Source: Gammaproteobacteria bacterium TMED78
GTDB lineage: Bacteria > Pseudomonadota > Gammaproteobacteria > Steroidobacterales > Rariloculaceae
DNA length: 39,534 nt
Assembly: GCA_002171615.1 (NCBI GenBank)
Contig: NHEF01000025.1
Coordinates: forward strand, 1-39,534
Reading direction: 5' to 3'
The position numbers and the translations under genes were made by a program. Shown here piece after piece: positions 28,648-36,550 of the stretch (position 1 is the first letter of the stretch; every line of letters begins with the position of its first letter). Below the pieces are notes generated by a model that did not search any database, was not told the origin of the DNA, and worked only from the letters and a program-made list of their open reading frames with translations.

Positions 28648-29646
28648 ATGAATAGAATAGATAATAAGCTAGAGCTAAATTTTCCTCAAAAACTAAGAGA
28701 ATTAGTAGCAAAAGACTGGGAATCAGTAAATAGCCTTATAGCTAGGAAGCTAGGGAGTGATGTTTCTCTGATCAATCAAATTGCACACCATATTATTCAT
28801 GGTGAGGGGAAAAGATTGCGTCCATTGATTACGTTGCTAGCCTCAAAAGCCTGTAATTACAATGGTGATAAGCATATCAATAATGCTGTAATAATTGAAT
28901 TTATTCATACCGCTACCTTGCTACATGATGATGTGGTTGATAATTCTGGACTTAGGAGGGGAGAGAAAACAGCAAATAAAGTTTTCGGAAATCAAGCAAG
29001 TATTCTTGTTGGAGATTTTCTATATTCTAGATCTTTCCAGATGATGATGGAAATAAGAGAGTTAAGAGTGCTAGATGTTTTAGCTAACACAACAAATACA
29101 ATTGCTGAAGGTGAGGTCCTGCAACTGATGCACTGTAAGAATCCAAATACTACTGAAGAAAACTATCTCGAAGTGATTTATAGAAAAACAGCTAAGCTTT
29201 TTGAAGCAGCATCCAGAATTGGAGCTATAATATCAAAGTCAGATGAGCAAGTTGAAAACAGCTTAATTAAATATGGTAGGCATCTTGGGTCAGCATTTCA
29301 GTTAATTGATGATGCTCTTGACTACAATGCAGATCACAATGATTTAGGTAAAAACATTGGTGATGATCTTTCTGAAGGAAAACCAACTCTACCTCTTATC
29401 TATGCACTACAAAATGGAAGTGCTGCTGAAAGGAATATGATTAAAGAAGCTATACAGTCTGGAGGTACACAAAACCTTAAATCAATTCAGCTAGCTATAG
29501 AGTCATCTGGGGGGATAAGATATACTGAAGAAAAAGCTAAAGAGCAGATCGAACTTGCTATAAACTCATTAAATACACTTCCAGAAAATAAATATAAAAA
29601 AGCTCTAATTGAGCTTGCTAATCATTCATTATCTAGGAACTACTAA
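28648..29646 (+). CDS. ispB: Polyprenyl (octaprenyl-type) diphosphate synthase
   Basis: This trans-prenyltransferase makes the isoprenoid side chain of ubiquinone or menaquinone. The 332-aa protein has GEGKRLRPLITLLASKA (53-69), the first aspartate-rich motif DDVVD (94-98) within LLHDDVVDNSGLRRG, and the second DDALD (221-225) within FQLIDDALDY. The small residues before the first motif are typical of long-chain enzymes. The position, divergent from rplU-rpmA-obgE, is the same as ispB in many gammaproteobacteria. The chain length is not readable here. The sulfatase gene follows after only 9 bp and may share its transcript. Confidence 0.95.
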   Translation: MNRIDNKLELNFPQKLRELVAKDWESVNSLIARKLGSDVSLINQIAHHIIHGEGKRLRPLITLLASKACNYNGDKHINNAVIIEFIHTATLLHDDVVDNSGLRRGEKTANKVFGNQASILVGDFLYSRSFQMMMEIRELRVLDVLANTTNTIAEGEVLQLMHCKNPNTTEENYLEVIYRKTAKLFEAASRIGAIISKSDEQVENSLIKYGRHLGSAFQLIDDALDYNADHNDLGKNIGDDLSEGKPTLPLIYALQNGSAAERNMIKEAIQSGGTQNLKSIQLAIESSGGIRYTEEKAKEQIELAINSLNTLPENKYKKALIELANHSLSRNY

Positions 29647-29655
29647 GGGAAAAAT

Positions 29656-31374
29656 ATGAAAATAAAATACACATTTATTATTCTTTTTACTTCTTGTTTT
29701 ATTATGTCATCCTGTTCAGACAATAATAATCCTTCAGGAACATTAGAGGAAGCTACCAGACCTAATATTCTTCTAATTGTAGGTGATGATCTAGGATTTA
29801 CAGATTTAGGCTCATTTGGTGGAGAAATATCTACTCCTAATCTAGATTCACTTGCTTTTGAGGGAGTCCGTTTTACAAATTTTCATGGCGGAAGGGCATG
29901 TCAACAAACTAGAGCAATGCTAATGAGTGGCAGAGGCGTTTCCTCTGTAATGGAAGCGCGTCCAACTAGACCAGATGGTCAAAGAGATAACGTCATAACT
30001 ACAAAAGCCGCTCTTGTATCGGAGTTGCTTCAGGATGCTGGGTACACAAATTTTATAGCCGGAAAATGGGATCTTGGTCTTGAAGCGCCACATACTCCAG
30101 CAACTAGAGGCTTTGATAGAGGTTTTGTTTTACTAGAAGCTGCAAATAGACATTTTAACGTCGGAGAATCATTATGGAATCCACTCTCTTCTGATGGACT
30201 CTCTTCTGATGGAACAGAGTCTCTCTCTTACTACGAAGAAGATGGTGTTCGTCTTGAATTTTCTGATCTGCCAGATAATTTTTACTCAACTAAAAATTAC
30301 ACTGATAAAGTACTTGATTATCTTCAAGCACATAATAACGAATCTCCTTGGTTTACTTTTATTCCCTACACCGCACCACATTGGCCCCTTCAAGTGCCAG
30401 ATGATTGGCTAGATAAATATGAAGGTAAATATGACCAAGGGTACGATATATTAAGGGATCAAAGAATTACCCAAGCATCTTTACTAGGAGTCATACCAAA
30501 TGGGGCTAATTTAAATAATAATTATAAGCGTTCGCTTCCCTGGAGCTCCTTAAGCTCTGAAGAAAAAGCTAGATATGCTCGAGCACAAGAAATTTACGCC
30601 AGCATGATTGAATACATGGATATGAGTATTGGTCGAATAATTGATTATCTAGAATCTAGTAATCAACTTGATAATACTGTAATTATCTTTTTATCCGACC
30701 ATGGCGCCTCATCAGGCGAGCATGGGGTAAATCCTAACTGGCGACAAATTGCAAGCGGTCCTCGGTATGATATAGATAGATTTGATAATAGCTTAGAAAA
30801 CTATGGTAAAAAATATTCTTGGATTGATCATGGAGAGGGTTTTGCAGAAGCTGCAAGCGCACCTTTTAAATATTTTAAGGGTCGTTTAAGCGAAGGTGGT
30901 CTTAGAAGCGCTGGATTTATTTCCTTTCCTAAAGCTATTACCCAACCAAGTATTGATCATACCTTTCTAACTTATATGGATCTCTTTCCAACGCTCCTTG
31001 ATATTGCAGGTACACAACATCCAGGAGCTGGGAATTACAAAGGTAGGGAAATACTCCCAATTATTGGTAAATCTTTTTGGCCATATCTTTTAAATGAAAC
31101 TAATTATGTTCACGATGAAGAAGATGTAGCCGGCTGGTCTGCAAATAGAACTGGTGCAATTACAAGGGGTAACTATAAATTAATTAACCACCCGCCTCCT
31201 GGACTTGGTGGTGGAGAAACAGTTGTTGGTTTTGGCGATTCTGGTGTATCAAATGATATACCTTGGGAGCTATATGATCTTTCTATAGATCCAAGTGAAA
31301 CTAATAATATCGCCTCTGAGAATCCTGAGCTTGTGAGTGAGCTATCTGAAATATGGGAGAGAGATTGGCGGTAA
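29656..31374 (+). CDS. Sulfatase-family lipoprotein with non-canonical active-site motifs
   Basis: This is a 572-aa arylsulfatase-like protein exported as a lipoprotein (lipobox ending at Cys20 in FIMSSC). The fold is clear: PNILLIVGDDLGFTDLGSFG with metal-binding Asp44-Asp45, STPNLDSLAFEGVRFTNFH, APHWPLQVPDDW, FLSDHGASSGEHG and KGRLSEGGLRSAGF. Two usual signatures are altered. The formylglycine motif CxPxR reads CQQTR (82-86), with the proline replaced by Gln. The GKWHLG loop reads GKWDLG (136-141), replacing the catalytic His with Asp. Cys82 itself is kept. It could be an active sulfatase with different maturation, another hydrolase of the alkaline-phosphatase superfamily, or an inactive paralogue. 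It follows ispB by 9 bp with AAGGGA before its ATG. Confidence 0.88.
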   Translation: MKIKYTFIILFTSCFIMSSCSDNNNPSGTLEEATRPNILLIVGDDLGFTDLGSFGGEISTPNLDSLAFEGVRFTNFHGGRACQQTRAMLMSGRGVSSVMEARPTRPDGQRDNVITTKAALVSELLQDAGYTNFIAGKWDLGLEAPHTPATRGFDRGFVLLEAANRHFNVGESLWNPLSSDGLSSDGTESLSYYEEDGVRLEFSDLPDNFYSTKNYTDKVLDYLQAHNNESPWFTFIPYTAPHWPLQVPDDWLDKYEGKYDQGYDILRDQRITQASLLGVIPNGANLNNNYKRSLPWSSLSSEEKARYARAQEIYASMIEYMDMSIGRIIDYLESSNQLDNTVIIFLSDHGASSGEHGVNPNWRQIASGPRYDIDRFDNSLENYGKKYSWIDHGEGFAEAASAPFKYFKGRLSEGGLRSAGFISFPKAITQPSIDHTFLTYMDLFPTLLDIAGTQHPGAGNYKGREILPIIGKSFWPYLLNETNYVHDEEDVAGWSANRTGAITRGNYKLINHPPPGLGGGETVVGFGDSGVSNDIPWELYDLSIDPSETNNIASENPELVSELSEIWERDWR

Positions 31375-31695: not shown

Positions 31696-33909
31696 TTATA
31701 GCCTAAAAGTCTGGGTATATTTAATAGCAAATTGTGATTGATCAGATCCTAAATTATCAAATCTATCTAGAGTTTTGAATCCATGGTTTAAAACAACATA
31801 CAAATCTCTTCCAGATCTTGGCGTCCACTGAAGTCGACTATTTATACCTGCAGAATTTGATTCATTATCATATTGAATTAAGTTACGCCAAGACCAGCGA
31901 ACATTAAAAGCATAATTGATTCTCAAGCTTACTTCTTTAGTAGAAAAATCTCCCATAGGCAATGCAATATCATTATATTTGTATGACAAATTTAAATAGA
32001 GATTATCAGATGGGCGCATATTTAATCCAAGGCTGTATTCACTTCTTTTTCCATCATAAAAATCGCCTGTTTCAACCTCTATAGCAGGCGCAAAATCTCT
32101 TTCTTCAGCACCTTCTATTTCTAAAGAAATAGTATTCCAAGTATAGTCACCTGTGAGTATATTTGTATCTTTATAAATATTGAAATTTTCTTCTAAAACA
32201 ACTCTTTCTTGTTTAACCTGAAGATCCATTTCAACGCCTGACCTAGTGACAATTTGGATTGGTGAAAGAAAGAATAAAGAATTTTCAGCTCTTCCGCTTA
32301 TTTTTTCATGGGCAGCAAACTGTAATTGTGAATTCCAAGATGTTAACCAGGAATGGTTAGGCAGAAACTTTCGGTATGCTATTACAGACCTAAGATAATT
32401 GACTCCCTTTCGGTTTGCAAATCCTAATGCTGGATTATAGTTCTCCTGGAATTGGGTAAAATTAACTCCACCTCTAAATCCCTCACGCCTAATTACAGCT
32501 CCCCTTACTCCAAATGCTCCCTGCTTATCGTCTACTCCCTCTGTATCAGATTGCTGTGCCCATAGTCCTCCCGTTAAAGTAGATCCATCTAATATACGGC
32601 TATTAACATAATTAAAATCTAGACCAACTAAAGAATTATCTAAGTTACTATTTGGGTCACCCCGAGTCGTAATAAAACCAACACTAGACTGCTCCAATAC
32701 ATTGGCTGATACTCGAGCAACCAATAAATTTTCATCTACACCATTTATATCTTCTTGTTGAACATTAAGCATGCCAACATTCCATCTACCAATTCTTCCA
32801 CTAATTTTCGCACCCATATCTAAATCTAGCGGAGCTCCTTCCTTGCTAAGTCCAACCCTTCTAGAATAAAAGGGGATGCCATTTCTTCCATTGCCAAACG
32901 CCGAATTCCTATCGGCAAAACTAAATATATCAGTATCTTGGAGAAAAAAATCTCTCTTTTCAGGATAGAATAAAGAAAAACGAGTTAAGTTTACTCTCTG
33001 AGTATCACTCTCAGTTGAGGCAAAATCAGTATTAAAAGTAAGCGCTCCCTTCAAAGAAGGAGAAAAGTTATATGTAATATCTAAAGAAGGCTCTGTATTT
33101 GATGAAGAAGATTCTTTTTCAGCAAAATTTTTATTTCTTAAAGAAACGAAAGATGGAGTAATATCAAGTCCTAGTCCCTGCTCTAAGCCATAAAGACCAC
33201 TAATTGATCCTAAGGTAGTTAAATTTATATTACCGTTAAACGAAGACCAAGCAATTTGCTCAAGATTTCGAGCAACTGTTCTCTCAGCAGAAAAACCCCA
33301 ATCACTAATGTTAGGATTGAAATTTATTGTATCAAGTGGGATAGCCATTTCTGCTACCCATCCACGATCATTTATTGTTGCTCTAGCTTCCCAAATACCT
33401 TCCCAGTTCCTATTAAGCTGTCTGTAATCAGAAAAAACTGCATCTACTGTTGCTCCATTTGGATTTACTTGGAAATAATAACCGCTCCTTCTATTATTGA
33501 AAGGATCCAAATAAATAGTAAATGAATCATCATATTGTAAACTTGCATTCTTAATTAAACTTCTAGCTCTAATCTGGTCAGGCTCACTATCAAGAAGTTC
33601 TGCTGCTACATAAAAATAATTTTCATCGAAAGTGATGTACATAAGTGTTTTTTGGGAGGGCATGATATGATCAAATGGCTCATACTGATGAAAATCCTCA
33701 ACTGGAGAAATCATAGTCCAAGTATCATCATCAAGAATACCGTCAATAACTGGCGAAGAAACTGCCTTACTTATATTTATTCTTTTATTTCTATCTATCT
33801 CAATATTTTGAGAAAAAGATGGAAAAGCCAAAAATAAAGAAAATAACAACAAGCCGTGAACAAACATAGAAAAAAACCTTGCCTGTGCTGGGGTATTAAA
33901 AAAACTCAT
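31696..33909 (-). CDS. DUF5916 outer-membrane protein with CBM9-like domain (second copy)
   Basis: This protein is about 737 aa from the ATG at 33907-33909, chosen because AAGGAA lies upstream and a signal peptide (FVHGLLLFSLFLAFPSFSQ) follows; an alternative ATG 14 codons further in is also possible. The CBM9-like domain begins at KAVSSPVIDGILDDDTWTMI and includes TLMYITFDENYFYVAAELLD and DDSFTIYLDPFNNRRSGYYF. The DUF5916 region carries TFNTDFASTESDTQRVNLTR and FSLFYPEKRDFFLQDTDIF, ending in a barrel-like stretch closing on Phe-Arg-Leu. Its CBM9 domain is more canonical than the one in the 15034-17343 protein, and the two are divergent paralogues. Function is unknown; surface glycan or peptide handling is often supposed. 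Confidence 0.87.
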   Translation of the reverse strand: MSFFNTPAQARFFSMFVHGLLLFSLFLAFPSFSQNIEIDRNKRINISKAVSSPVIDGILDDDTWTMISPVEDFHQYEPFDHIMPSQKTLMYITFDENYFYVAAELLDSEPDQIRARSLIKNASLQYDDSFTIYLDPFNNRRSGYYFQVNPNGATVDAVFSDYRQLNRNWEGIWEARATINDRGWVAEMAIPLDTINFNPNISDWGFSAERTVARNLEQIAWSSFNGNINLTTLGSISGLYGLEQGLGLDITPSFVSLRNKNFAEKESSSSNTEPSLDITYNFSPSLKGALTFNTDFASTESDTQRVNLTRFSLFYPEKRDFFLQDTDIFSFADRNSAFGNGRNGIPFYSRRVGLSKEGAPLDLDMGAKISGRIGRWNVGMLNVQQEDINGVDENLLVARVSANVLEQSSVGFITTRGDPNSNLDNSLVGLDFNYVNSRILDGSTLTGGLWAQQSDTEGVDDKQGAFGVRGAVIRREGFRGGVNFTQFQENYNPALGFANRKGVNYLRSVIAYRKFLPNHSWLTSWNSQLQFAAHEKISGRAENSLFFLSPIQIVTRSGVEMDLQVKQERVVLEENFNIYKDTNILTGDYTWNTISLEIEGAEERDFAPAIEVETGDFYDGKRSEYSLGLNMRPSDNLYLNLSYKYNDIALPMGDFSTKEVSLRINYAFNVRWSWRNLIQYDNESNSAGINSRLQWTPRSGRDLYVVLNHGFKTLDRFDNLGSDQSQFAIKYTQTFRL

Positions 33910-34006
33910 GTAAAGCAAATTCCTTAAATCTATTAGTGATAGCAAAATCAAAAATCAATTGTAACTTATAAACTAGCTAATCAAATAATAATATTAACGT
34001 AGATGG

Positions 34007-34528: not shown

Positions 34529-36550
34529 ATGAGTAAGTTTTATTATTTTGTGCTACTACTAGTAGCAAGTTCATTAGTTAATGCACAGCAAGATGATGGT
34601 GTCATTGAAGAAATAGTTGTTAGTAGTGTAGGTCAAAAAACTGCTAATGAAATAATTTCTAGTATAGATATTATTGATCACACATCATTAGATAGGGGCA
34701 TTAATCAAAATATAGGTGAAATATTAGAAAAAACTATTGGGGTTGATAATGCCGCCCTTGGTAGAGCTGTAGGTCAACCAGTTATTAGAGGATTAAGTGG
34801 CTATAGAGTGAAAGTTTTAGAAAATGGCCTATCATCTGGTGATATGTCAGAAAATAGTGGTGATCATCCACATGCTTTAAATGCTCTTGCCATTTCTAGA
34901 GTAGAAGTTCTAAAGGGTCCAGCAGCTTTAAGATATGGTCCATTTTCTAATTCTGGTGTAATTAATATGTTGTCAGAACATCAATTAATAGATGAAAATA
35001 CACAAAGTGGTGGGGACATACTATTTGGAAATAGTTCAGTCGCAAAAGAAAACTCAGTACATTTTCATTCACTACTTAGAAGTGGCAACTGGTTTGTAGG
35101 GCTATCTGGTCATAAAAGAGACGGGAAAGATTATAAAATCCCTGGCTATGAAGAAACAGAAGCTTTACATGCAAAGCATGAAGCTGAAGAGGAAGAAGAG
35201 GAAGAAGAAGGACACCCCCATGAAGAAGAGGTAAGAGTAAAAGGTACTGCAAAAAGTACCGCCCTTGATGAGCAAGGCCTTAACTTCCATACTACTTGGC
35301 TAGGTAATAATAATAAATTCACTGTTTTTCTTAATAGCAGTGAATCATTATTTGGTATTCCAGGTCACGAACATGAAGAAGAGGAAGAAGAAGTGATAAC
35401 TCTTGATATGGAAAGAACAAGATCTGGATTTGAATATGTCCAAGACATAAATGGCTTTTTCAATGAATTTTCATTTAACTCAGCTTTTACAGATTATAAA
35501 CATGGTGAGTTAGAAGGAAAGGAAACAGCATTGTCGTACGCTAACAAAGCTCAAAATATAAGAATGGAGCTTGCATATGGAAGTGATAGCTCTAATGGAG
35601 TGATTGGATATTCTTTTGATGAAGATGATACTACTATAGGTGGTGAAGAAGCAGGTTATATTCCAAGCTCTAAAAAATCTAGCAAAGCTTTATTCATTGT
35701 TCAAAATATTGAAAGAGGCAACCTTCTTGCTGAAGGAGCAATTAGACTTGAAAATAATGAATTAGAAGCTGTAGGCGCTAAATACAGTAAGATTAGCAAA
35801 AATAATAATAGCTTCTCTGTTGGAACTGGACTTAAGCTTACAGAAGAAGCCCTATTAGGCTTTTCACTTGCAAAAAACTCAAGAGCCCCAAGCATTTCTG
35901 AGCTTTATGCAGAGGGTAAACATCTTGATGCAGGAATATACGAAAAAGGAAATGCTTCACTAAAGAATGAAAATTCTACGGCTCTAGAGGTGTATTATCG
36001 CTATTCCAGCGATTCATTTAGTTTAAAGGCTTCATACTTTAATAATGATTTTGATAGCTATATTTATAGACAAACTACTGGCGCTAAAATTAATAAAGTA
36101 CCTGTAATTCAATATAAGCAGCAAGGAGCTAAAATCTCTGGTACTGAAGTTGAATTAAACTTTGCTCCTATGACACTAGGGAATTTTGATATTTCAAATT
36201 CATTCATGATTACTAATATTTCTGGGGAGCTTAATGGTGGCGGATATGTACCACGAATGCCTCCTATGAATTACCAGTATACAGTTGATGCGATGTCAAA
36301 TAACTGGATGTACACACTTAGATATAGGCATAGTGAGAAACAAGATTCACTAGCATTAAATGAGATGTTAACTGATGCTTATAATAGAGTAGATCTTGAA
36401 GTAGTTTATACAACAAATTTTGGTATGACTGTTTCACTACTTGCTAAAAACCTAGGTAATGAAGATATTAGAAACCATACTTCTTGGTTGAAAGATAAGC
36501 TACCAGAGCCTGGTAGAGATTATAATTTATCTGTTCAATATAGTTTCTAA
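34529..36550 (+). CDS. TonB-dependent receptor, ZnuD-like (probable zinc uptake), His/Glu-rich loops
   Basis: This is a 673-aa outer-membrane receptor. A signal peptide ends near residue 19 (SSLVNA|QQ), a TonB-box-like VIEEIVVSS follows at 25-33, then the plug domain with QPVIRGLSGYRVKVLENGLS, GDMSENSGDHPHALN and VEVLKGPAALRYG, and a 22-strand-type barrel ending in Phe. The plug motif D-M-S-x2-S-x-DH is very like Neisseria ZnuD. Two extracellular-type loops are extremely His/Glu-rich: about 212-235 (HAKHEAE, eight Glu, GHPHEEE) and 279-288 (GHEHEEEEEE), consistent with binding Zn2+ or another divalent metal. Metal identity is inference. AGGAG lies 7 bp before the ATG. A tandem paralogue follows. 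Confidence 0.88.
   Translation: MSKFYYFVLLLVASSLVNAQQDDGVIEEIVVSSVGQKTANEIISSIDIIDHTSLDRGINQNIGEILEKTIGVDNAALGRAVGQPVIRGLSGYRVKVLENGLSSGDMSENSGDHPHALNALAISRVEVLKGPAALRYGPFSNSGVINMLSEHQLIDENTQSGGDILFGNSSVAKENSVHFHSLLRSGNWFVGLSGHKRDGKDYKIPGYEETEALHAKHEAEEEEEEEEGHPHEEEVRVKGTAKSTALDEQGLNFHTTWLGNNNKFTVFLNSSESLFGIPGHEHEEEEEEVITLDMERTRSGFEYVQDINGFFNEFSFNSAFTDYKHGELEGKETALSYANKAQNIRMELAYGSDSSNGVIGYSFDEDDTTIGGEEAGYIPSSKKSSKALFIVQNIERGNLLAEGAIRLENNELEAVGAKYSKISKNNNSFSVGTGLKLTEEALLGFSLAKNSRAPSISELYAEGKHLDAGIYEKGNASLKNENSTALEVYYRYSSDSFSLKASYFNNDFDSYIYRQTTGAKINKVPVIQYKQQGAKISGTEVELNFAPMTLGNFDISNSFMITNISGELNGGGYVPRMPPMNYQYTVDAMSNNWMYTLRYRHSEKQDSLALNEMLTDAYNRVDLEVVYTTNFGMTVSLLAKNLGNEDIRNHTSWLKDKLPEPGRDYNLSVQYSF

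Follow-up and report, generated by a model that had tools for sequence, protein, structure and literature searches.

The window (the whole stretch of 39,534 nucleotides that was analysed) holds a gene for a predicted AtsA-like sulfatase with a non-canonical maturation motif at positions 29,656 to 31,374 of the plus strand. This assignment is based on the list of open reading frames, Pfam and phmmer. The frame encodes 572 amino acids and starts with ATG, 9 bases past the stop codon of the upstream gene. The latter (28,648 to 29,646, plus strand) encodes a polyprenyl diphosphate synthase and is presumably ispB, a name that both the initial annotation and we took from reading the sequence. At the start of the sulfatase gene, positions 29,656 to 29,715 (plus strand) specify a putative signal peptide with a lipobox-like MSS-C20 at its end. 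It was recognised by eye, with no predictor, and the box alone is a weak sign; clearer lipoboxes (LAAC or ISGC type) were seen by eye in some members of the clade described below.

Active site and maturation motif

The product scores 185.5 bits against the Pfam sulfatase profile PF00884 (cut-off 25), which places it in family S1. Its best solved relatives are chains of AtsA from P. aeruginosa (phmmer, E 3.4e-117 for the best chain, residues 34 to 569), and the top PDB match, AtsA, belongs to SulfAtlas subfamily S1_4 (PDB 1hdh and 4cxs). An AlphaFold job on the window protein together with L001 to L003 gave a mean pLDDT of 43.6, and the model is not used for any claim.

The residues of the pocket were paired by counting along the phmmer alignment, and the roles of the AtsA residues are in part taken from literature passages. 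The metal ligands Asp13 and Asp14 of AtsA correspond to Asp44 and Asp45 (29,785 to 29,790). The maturation and nucleophile motif C82-Q-Q-T-R86 (29,899 to 29,913) aligns with CSPTR, so that Cys82 takes the place of formylglycine 51, Gln84 that of Pro53 and Arg86 that of Arg55. In GKWDLG (residues 136 to 141, 30,061 to 30,078), Lys137 equals Lys113 and Asp139 stands where AtsA has His115. Further downstream follow His242 (30,379 to 30,381, His211 in AtsA), the motif SDHG (residues 347 to 350, 30,694 to 30,705), in which Asp348-His349 of the metal site replaces Asp317-Asn318, the motif SWIDHG (30,817 to 30,834), in which Asp391-His392 replaces Trp358-Tyr359, and Lys408 (30,877 to 30,879, Lys375 in AtsA). 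All of these features lie on the plus strand. Overall, alignment and conservation point to equivalents of Asp13, Asp14, Cys51, Arg55, Lys113, His211, Asp317 and Lys375, i.e. the S1 pocket. The window protein differs from AtsA in CSPTR to CQQTR, His115 to Asp, Asn318 to His and Trp358-Tyr359 to Asp-His, and also in its lipoprotein-like signal.

The initial annotation had already read CQQTR and GKWDLG in this frame, and both are borne out by the sequence and by the AtsA alignment. With Gln at both +1 and +2, CQQTR departs from the C-x-[PA]-x-R motif, in which +1 is a small residue. In passages of PMC5066984, the core of an updated PS00523-type pattern is given as [CS]-[STACGMV]-[PA]-[STAGF]-R. 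According to the same passages, His115 is found in 81% and Pro53 in 87% of 4058 sequences, the Pro being mostly replaced by Ala. Literature passages describe His115 as the elimination base. The His115 base of FGly-dependent sulfatases is replaced by Asp139 in the window protein, and by Asp in all 26 rows of the clade.

A conserved clade of AtsA-like sulfatases

In a protein search of 58 related genomes, 21 homologues besides the window gene exceed 500 bits. All 21 carry GKWD and 19 lack the Pro, whereas the homologues below 500 bits mostly have CxPxR and GKWH. With a profile built from 19 sequences, 22 loci score at least 849 bits; they are spread over 13 of the 22 genomes of the same family, and the next match falls to 582 bits. 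At the level of the order (396 genomes), a profile search adds four clade loci in two genomes of another family, one of which has the same sequence as the Woeseiaceae record L003. In the class (369 genomes) and phylum (398 genomes), no clade member beyond the two of the own genome was found at the thresholds used. The class, order and phylum searches scored at most three candidates per genome, so further paralogues are possible. Altogether, the clade comprises 26 rows in 15 genomes, the window included.

With the motif columns omitted, the clade branch has an SH-aLRT of 100 in both trees, where it unites 23 of 84 rows and 26 of 154 rows, respectively. Duplicates, frames below 350 or 300 aa (depending on the set) and matches below 120 bits had been dropped, and the second tree left out 12 distant or long-branch rows. 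The 25 other clade members share the Asp at position 139 and 22 of them lack the Pro at +2, so the substitutions are not due to chance. The predicted enzyme is thus placed, by sequence, in a conserved sulfatase subfamily related to AtsA, as the initial annotation had considered. The search that it had proposed, for proteins with the same two substitutions, leads to this clade. Three clade members carry the Pro. Outside the bacterial genomes, 63 pattern matches on viral contigs include no relative, and the 116 plasmid records all stay below 60% identity (39% at best), nine of the 15 listed ones being annotated as arylsulfatase or atsA. A description of the clade was not recognised in the literature, as covered by titles and abstract openings with little from subscription journals or preprints.

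These members also bear on the simplest alternative, namely a sequence error or a decaying single copy. A second clade copy lies in the own genome (contig C15), and the members in 14 further genomes have no internal stop, although the copy of L003 ends at a contig edge. Error and decay are ruled out by this distribution; no point in their support was found, and their probability is negligible. The relatives with CxPxR and GKWHLG that would have marked such a case are not the nearest ones, which share the changes, and close pairs are under purifying selection. For seven clade pairs from other genomes, without the window gene, dN/dS is 0.11 to 0.25 (Nei-Gojobori), one pair having a dS of 1.8. 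The eighth pair, the window gene and its nearest relative, is saturated. The clade evolves under purifying selection.

Within the clade, Asp44, Cys82, Arg86, Lys137, Asp139, Asp348, Asp391 and Lys408 are invariant (26 of 26 rows), and Asp45 and His242 are each found in 25 of the 26. Residue 82 is always Cys and never Ser or Thr. At +1 the clade has Gln (17), Arg (7), Thr (1) or Leu (1), whereas 139 of the 140 rows outside it have Ala, Ser, Gly, Thr or Cys, and one has Glu. At +2 there are Gln (12), Glu, Pro and Ala (3 each), Thr (2), Asp, Arg and Ser (1 each); Pro thus occurs in 3 of 26 rows, compared to 125 of 140 outside. Position 349 is His in 21 and Asn in 5 clade rows, but Asn in 140 of 140 outside rows. 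Position 391 is Asp throughout the clade and in 2 of the 140 others. From these counts by position, the maturation motif has lost its constraint at +2 but not at the catalytic Cys and Arg, and the pocket has gained fixed residues of its own. It had been claimed that the metal-binding DD and DHG motifs are kept. Asp44 and Asp45 are in place, but for DHG the claim is misleading: judged from the alignment, His349 is a derived change, with which the metal site is altered as well (Asn to His).

The loss of His115 and that of the Pro could be suspected to be coupled. This was rejected because each occurs without the other. Outside the clade, GKWD is found in 25 of 140 rows, GKWN in five and GKWQ in two. 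All 25 GKWD rows keep CxPxR, and some of them are in genomes with an FGE match. Conversely, the 15 outside rows without Pro have GKWH (12) or GKWN (3), GKWH being seen with CxVxR or CxQxR. On the tree, residue 139 must have changed at least nine times, and no fewer than 14 switches between Pro and other residues are needed. Some of the GKWN, GKWQ and GKWD rows are AtsA-like sister groups from the same bacterial family, in which His115 is replaced as in the clade. In the tree, one supported set of 45 rows unites these groups, the clade and some of the GKWH rows. In contrast to the clade, the sister groups keep DNG and a small +1 residue, mostly have Pro at +2 and lack Asp391.

Could the protein be a catalytically dead pseudo-sulfatase that is kept as a binding lipoprotein? 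Two textbook positions of active site and maturation are indeed altered. However, the remaining catalytic residues vary little or not at all, and the close pairs are under purifying selection. The outside rows that combine GKWD with CxPxR indicate that the loss of His115 alone is no sign of a dead enzyme. A changed lipoprotein without activity, which the initial annotation had entertained, is therefore quite improbable.

An alternative that is somewhat less improbable, yet still unlikely, is that the enzyme is not a sulfatase but has moved to another substrate of the alkaline phosphatase superfamily (a phosphodiester, a phosphonate or another ester), with the Asp-His site and the changed pocket reflecting this shift. 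The substitution of Asn by His at 349, Asp391, His392 and Gln or Arg at +1 are clade-specific or nearly so. An Asp-His metal site as in the window protein is found in choline sulfatase, RlPMH and SpAS1. RlPMH and SpAS1 retain CxPxR. The same is reported for choline sulfatase, unlike the window protein, and a form of that enzyme without formylglycine is on record as active (passages of PMC6189696). Passages of PMC5870055 describe the DH metal site of choline sulfatase, with Mn as the suggested preferred metal, and a pocket that equals that of SpAS1 in full and shares 9 of 11 residues with that of RlPMH, a phosphonate hydrolase. On the other hand, DH also occurs in true sulfatases, and all five of the best solved matches to the window protein are AtsA-type arylsulfatase chains. 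The window protein also stays far below the NCBIfam cut-offs for PehA (NF045661, 94.2 bits versus 900) and choline sulfatase (TIGR03417, 87.1 versus 433.45); for the Mn arylsulfatase (NF052527) it reaches 46 bits, below the cut-off of 850.

Gene neighbourhood

The position behind ispB had been regarded as unusual. Instead, it recurs: at 8 of the 22 clade loci of the family the sulfatase gene is immediately preceded by ispB in the same orientation, with gaps (from first-ATG starts) of 9 to 91 bases at five loci and 786 at three. At some other clade loci, such as L207, the nearness of the contig end leaves the adjacency unreadable. The ispB-linked members are scattered over the clade, which makes it probable that the gene has long held this position.

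A dedicated maturase, for which a look near relatives had been advised, does not appear: no FGE or radical SAM protein is among the best 25 of 85 neighbour families. The scan covered 112 of the 158 listed neighbours, the other 46 including four neighbours of L003. The recurring families among the best 25 are DUF6152, sulfatases, NHL, DUF5916, PQQ dehydrogenase, transporters, phosphodiester glycosidase and sulfotransferase.

Three further observations concern the surroundings. The window encodes a DUF5916-type protein at 31,696 to 33,951 (minus strand), relatives of which lie near other clade sulfatases at five loci. At 34,529 to 36,550 an open reading frame reads as TonB-dependent receptor-like, with His/Glu-rich loops (HPHEEE, EEEEEEEGHPHEEE), and is possibly a metal receptor. 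In two other genomes (L205 and L208, in G012 and G021), a sulfotransferase-like gene lies near a clade sulfatase, and PF00685 was detected in two of the scanned neighbours.

Maturases and the state of Cys82

Different maturation had been suggested from the motif, and this suggestion gains from the genomes: neither the own genome nor most others that carry the clade yielded one of the known maturases. The own genome measures 1.57 Mb and is 98.77% complete. FGE carries two catalytic Cys, and its bis-thiolate Cu(I) site is described in the abstract of PMC12123546. The single PF03781 match of the own genome is a protein of 806 aa. The RGSSW...GFR region of its C-terminal domain, in which FGE has its Cys pair, is free of Cys, and no two-Cys FGE was found in the own genome. 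By reading, this gene (G000:C4:3647-6067; L229, 148-2568) combines PEGA-like repeats with an FGE-like domain that lacks the catalytic Cys pair, and it is followed by a MotA/ExbB-like gene. FGE-like matches in open frames of about 800 to 900 residues recur across many of the sampled genomes. It is possible that an FGE gene was missed in the own genome; most genomes of the sample are draft assemblies, and the absence of FGE leans on completeness and on its repetition across the family.

Among the FGE-like loci that were first read, a C-x4-C signature occurs in five, from five genomes, of which only G017 belongs to the family of the window. As a query, the FGE of G017 scores 768 bits in G017 itself and does not exceed 84.5 bits in any of the 21 remaining family genomes; several genomes outside the family reach 135 to 425 bits. 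By score, a two-Cys FGE is thus present in one of 22 family genomes, which the Cys regions that were read bear out. Among the 15 clade-bearing genomes, one was seen to have a two-Cys FGE (G017 in both cases). The strict Cys pattern misses some likely FGEs. A looser pattern was applied to 45 loci that cover a subset of the weak matches. It caught the eight strong-scoring FGE loci among them, two of which (L083 and L230) are one gene. It caught nothing in the remaining 37, among which are FGE-like loci from the other clade-bearing genomes, 14 in number. In the two clade-bearing genomes of another family, only the Cys-free FGE-like type of 811 to 832 residues was seen.

For anSME, the sole TIGR03942 match of the own genome reaches 23.6 bits (cut-off 349) and is MoaA-like by reading. 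None of the same-family genomes has an anSME above this cut-off; among the clade-bearing genomes, the search covered those of this family, not G627 and G631 of the other one. In two clade-bearing genomes, radical-SAM proteins of about 398 residues (L116 and L117, at G007:C40 and G020:C70) score 144 and 136.5 bits against the anSME model. They lie far above the MoaA-like level, and might be anSME-like enzymes.

The own genome contains nine further sulfatases, with the motifs CAPTR (four), CSPTR (two), CNPAR, CGPSR and CIASR. As neither FGE nor anSME was found, some route, or none, must serve these enzymes too. The CIASR protein (G000:C18:5000-8000; L226, L011), with Ala at +2 and GKWH, has ambiguous bases in its sequence. 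Three same-family genomes (G016, G019 and G020) are sulfatase-rich, with at least 70 sulfatase-profile matches each (matches, not genes); no two-Cys FGE was seen in them and no anSME scored above the cut-off.

The order sample of 396 genomes extends this picture. An AtsA-like match at E ≤ 1e-100 was found in 97 genomes and an FGE match in 40, FGE presence being defined here as E ≤ 1e-30 to one FGE protein and not by the Cys motif. On the assumption that both lists stem from one draw, our own count gives 22 genomes among the 97 with both matches. A lack of FGE is therefore common in sulfatase-bearing genomes and not specific to the clade. A general tracking of Pro loss with FGE loss did not reach significance: outside the clade, non-Pro motifs occur in 2 of 40 rows from FGE-bearing genomes and in 13 of 97 from FGE-lacking ones (Fisher p = 0.23). 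This comparison left out L001 and L002 (no genome assigned) and L191 (Ser-type), and its genome labels were entered by hand.

We favour, at a probability of roughly 0.42, an AtsA-type sulfohydrolase that represents a distinct subfamily, is exported and is probably anchored by a lipid. Its Cys82 would be converted to formylglycine by a route other than FGE and anSME, for which the Pro at +2 would be dispensable. Judged from alignment and conservation, Cys82, Arg86, Lys137, His242 and Lys408 form the usual sulfatase pocket with the metal site of Asp44, Asp45, Asp348 and His349. The enzyme would hydrolyse a sulfate ester. Asp139 would replace His115 as the base that releases the sulfate, and Asp391-His392 would be added, clade-specific residues. 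A comparable case is the third maturation activity of E. coli, where sulfatases mature without FGE (Benjdia 2007, as cited in passages of PMC6189696). In the same passages, E. coli is said to convert CxPxR sulfatases to varying degrees by machinery that was not identified as of 2015. A route of this type would also serve the CxPxR sulfatases of the own genome. Several points count against this reading. The CxPxR paralogues in the same genomes keep their Pro, which suggests that the Pro still matters to their maturation, and the non-Pro motifs outside the clade show no clear link to a lack of FGE. G017, although clade-bearing, encodes a two-Cys FGE, and G007 and G020 may have an anSME-like enzyme in their radical-SAM proteins.

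The main rival, which we consider rather unlikely, is an active hydrolase that uses an unmodified Cys82 (or a metal-bound thiolate). Freed from recognition by a maturase, positions +1 to +3 would drift while Cys and Arg stay for catalysis, and Asp139 and Asp391-His392 would supply the base that hydrolyses an enzyme-sulfate intermediate. The eight residues accepted at +2, next to an invariant Cys82 and Arg86, are in line with this, as are the 14 of 15 clade-bearing genomes in which a two-Cys FGE was not seen. Moreover, passages of PMC6189696 report that the choline sulfatase of E. meliloti turns over with a wholly unmodified Cys54 (kcat of 0.27 per s). However, the same passages expect formylglycine to raise kcat 5- to 2500-fold, judging from similar enzymes. 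Ser is one mutation away, yet the clade shows no Ser or Thr at this position, and the CxPxR paralogues of the same genomes lack the maturases equally. A bolder suggestion, of rather low probability, is that the clade, in a sulfatase-rich lineage mostly without FGE and anSME, represents either a formylglycine-independent S1 sulfatase with a cysteine nucleophile and an Asp base, which would have dropped the recognition motif because its Cys is never converted, or the natural client of a third maturation system with a looser C-x-x-x-R rule.

To our knowledge, formylglycine maturation is treated as the entry ticket to family S1, and FGE and anSME are the two known enzymes for it. Here, a conserved and mostly Pro-less branch occurs in a bacterial family with several sulfatase-rich genomes, of whose 22 genomes 21 show no FGE by score and all lack an anSME that exceeds the cut-off. 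Annotation that relies on the C-x-[PA]-x-R pattern to recognise sulfatases will overlook branches of this kind. Such a family is natural material in which to find a third route or to show the evolution of S1 away from formylglycine. If Cys82 is never converted, the branch would represent a formylglycine-independent mechanism within family S1.
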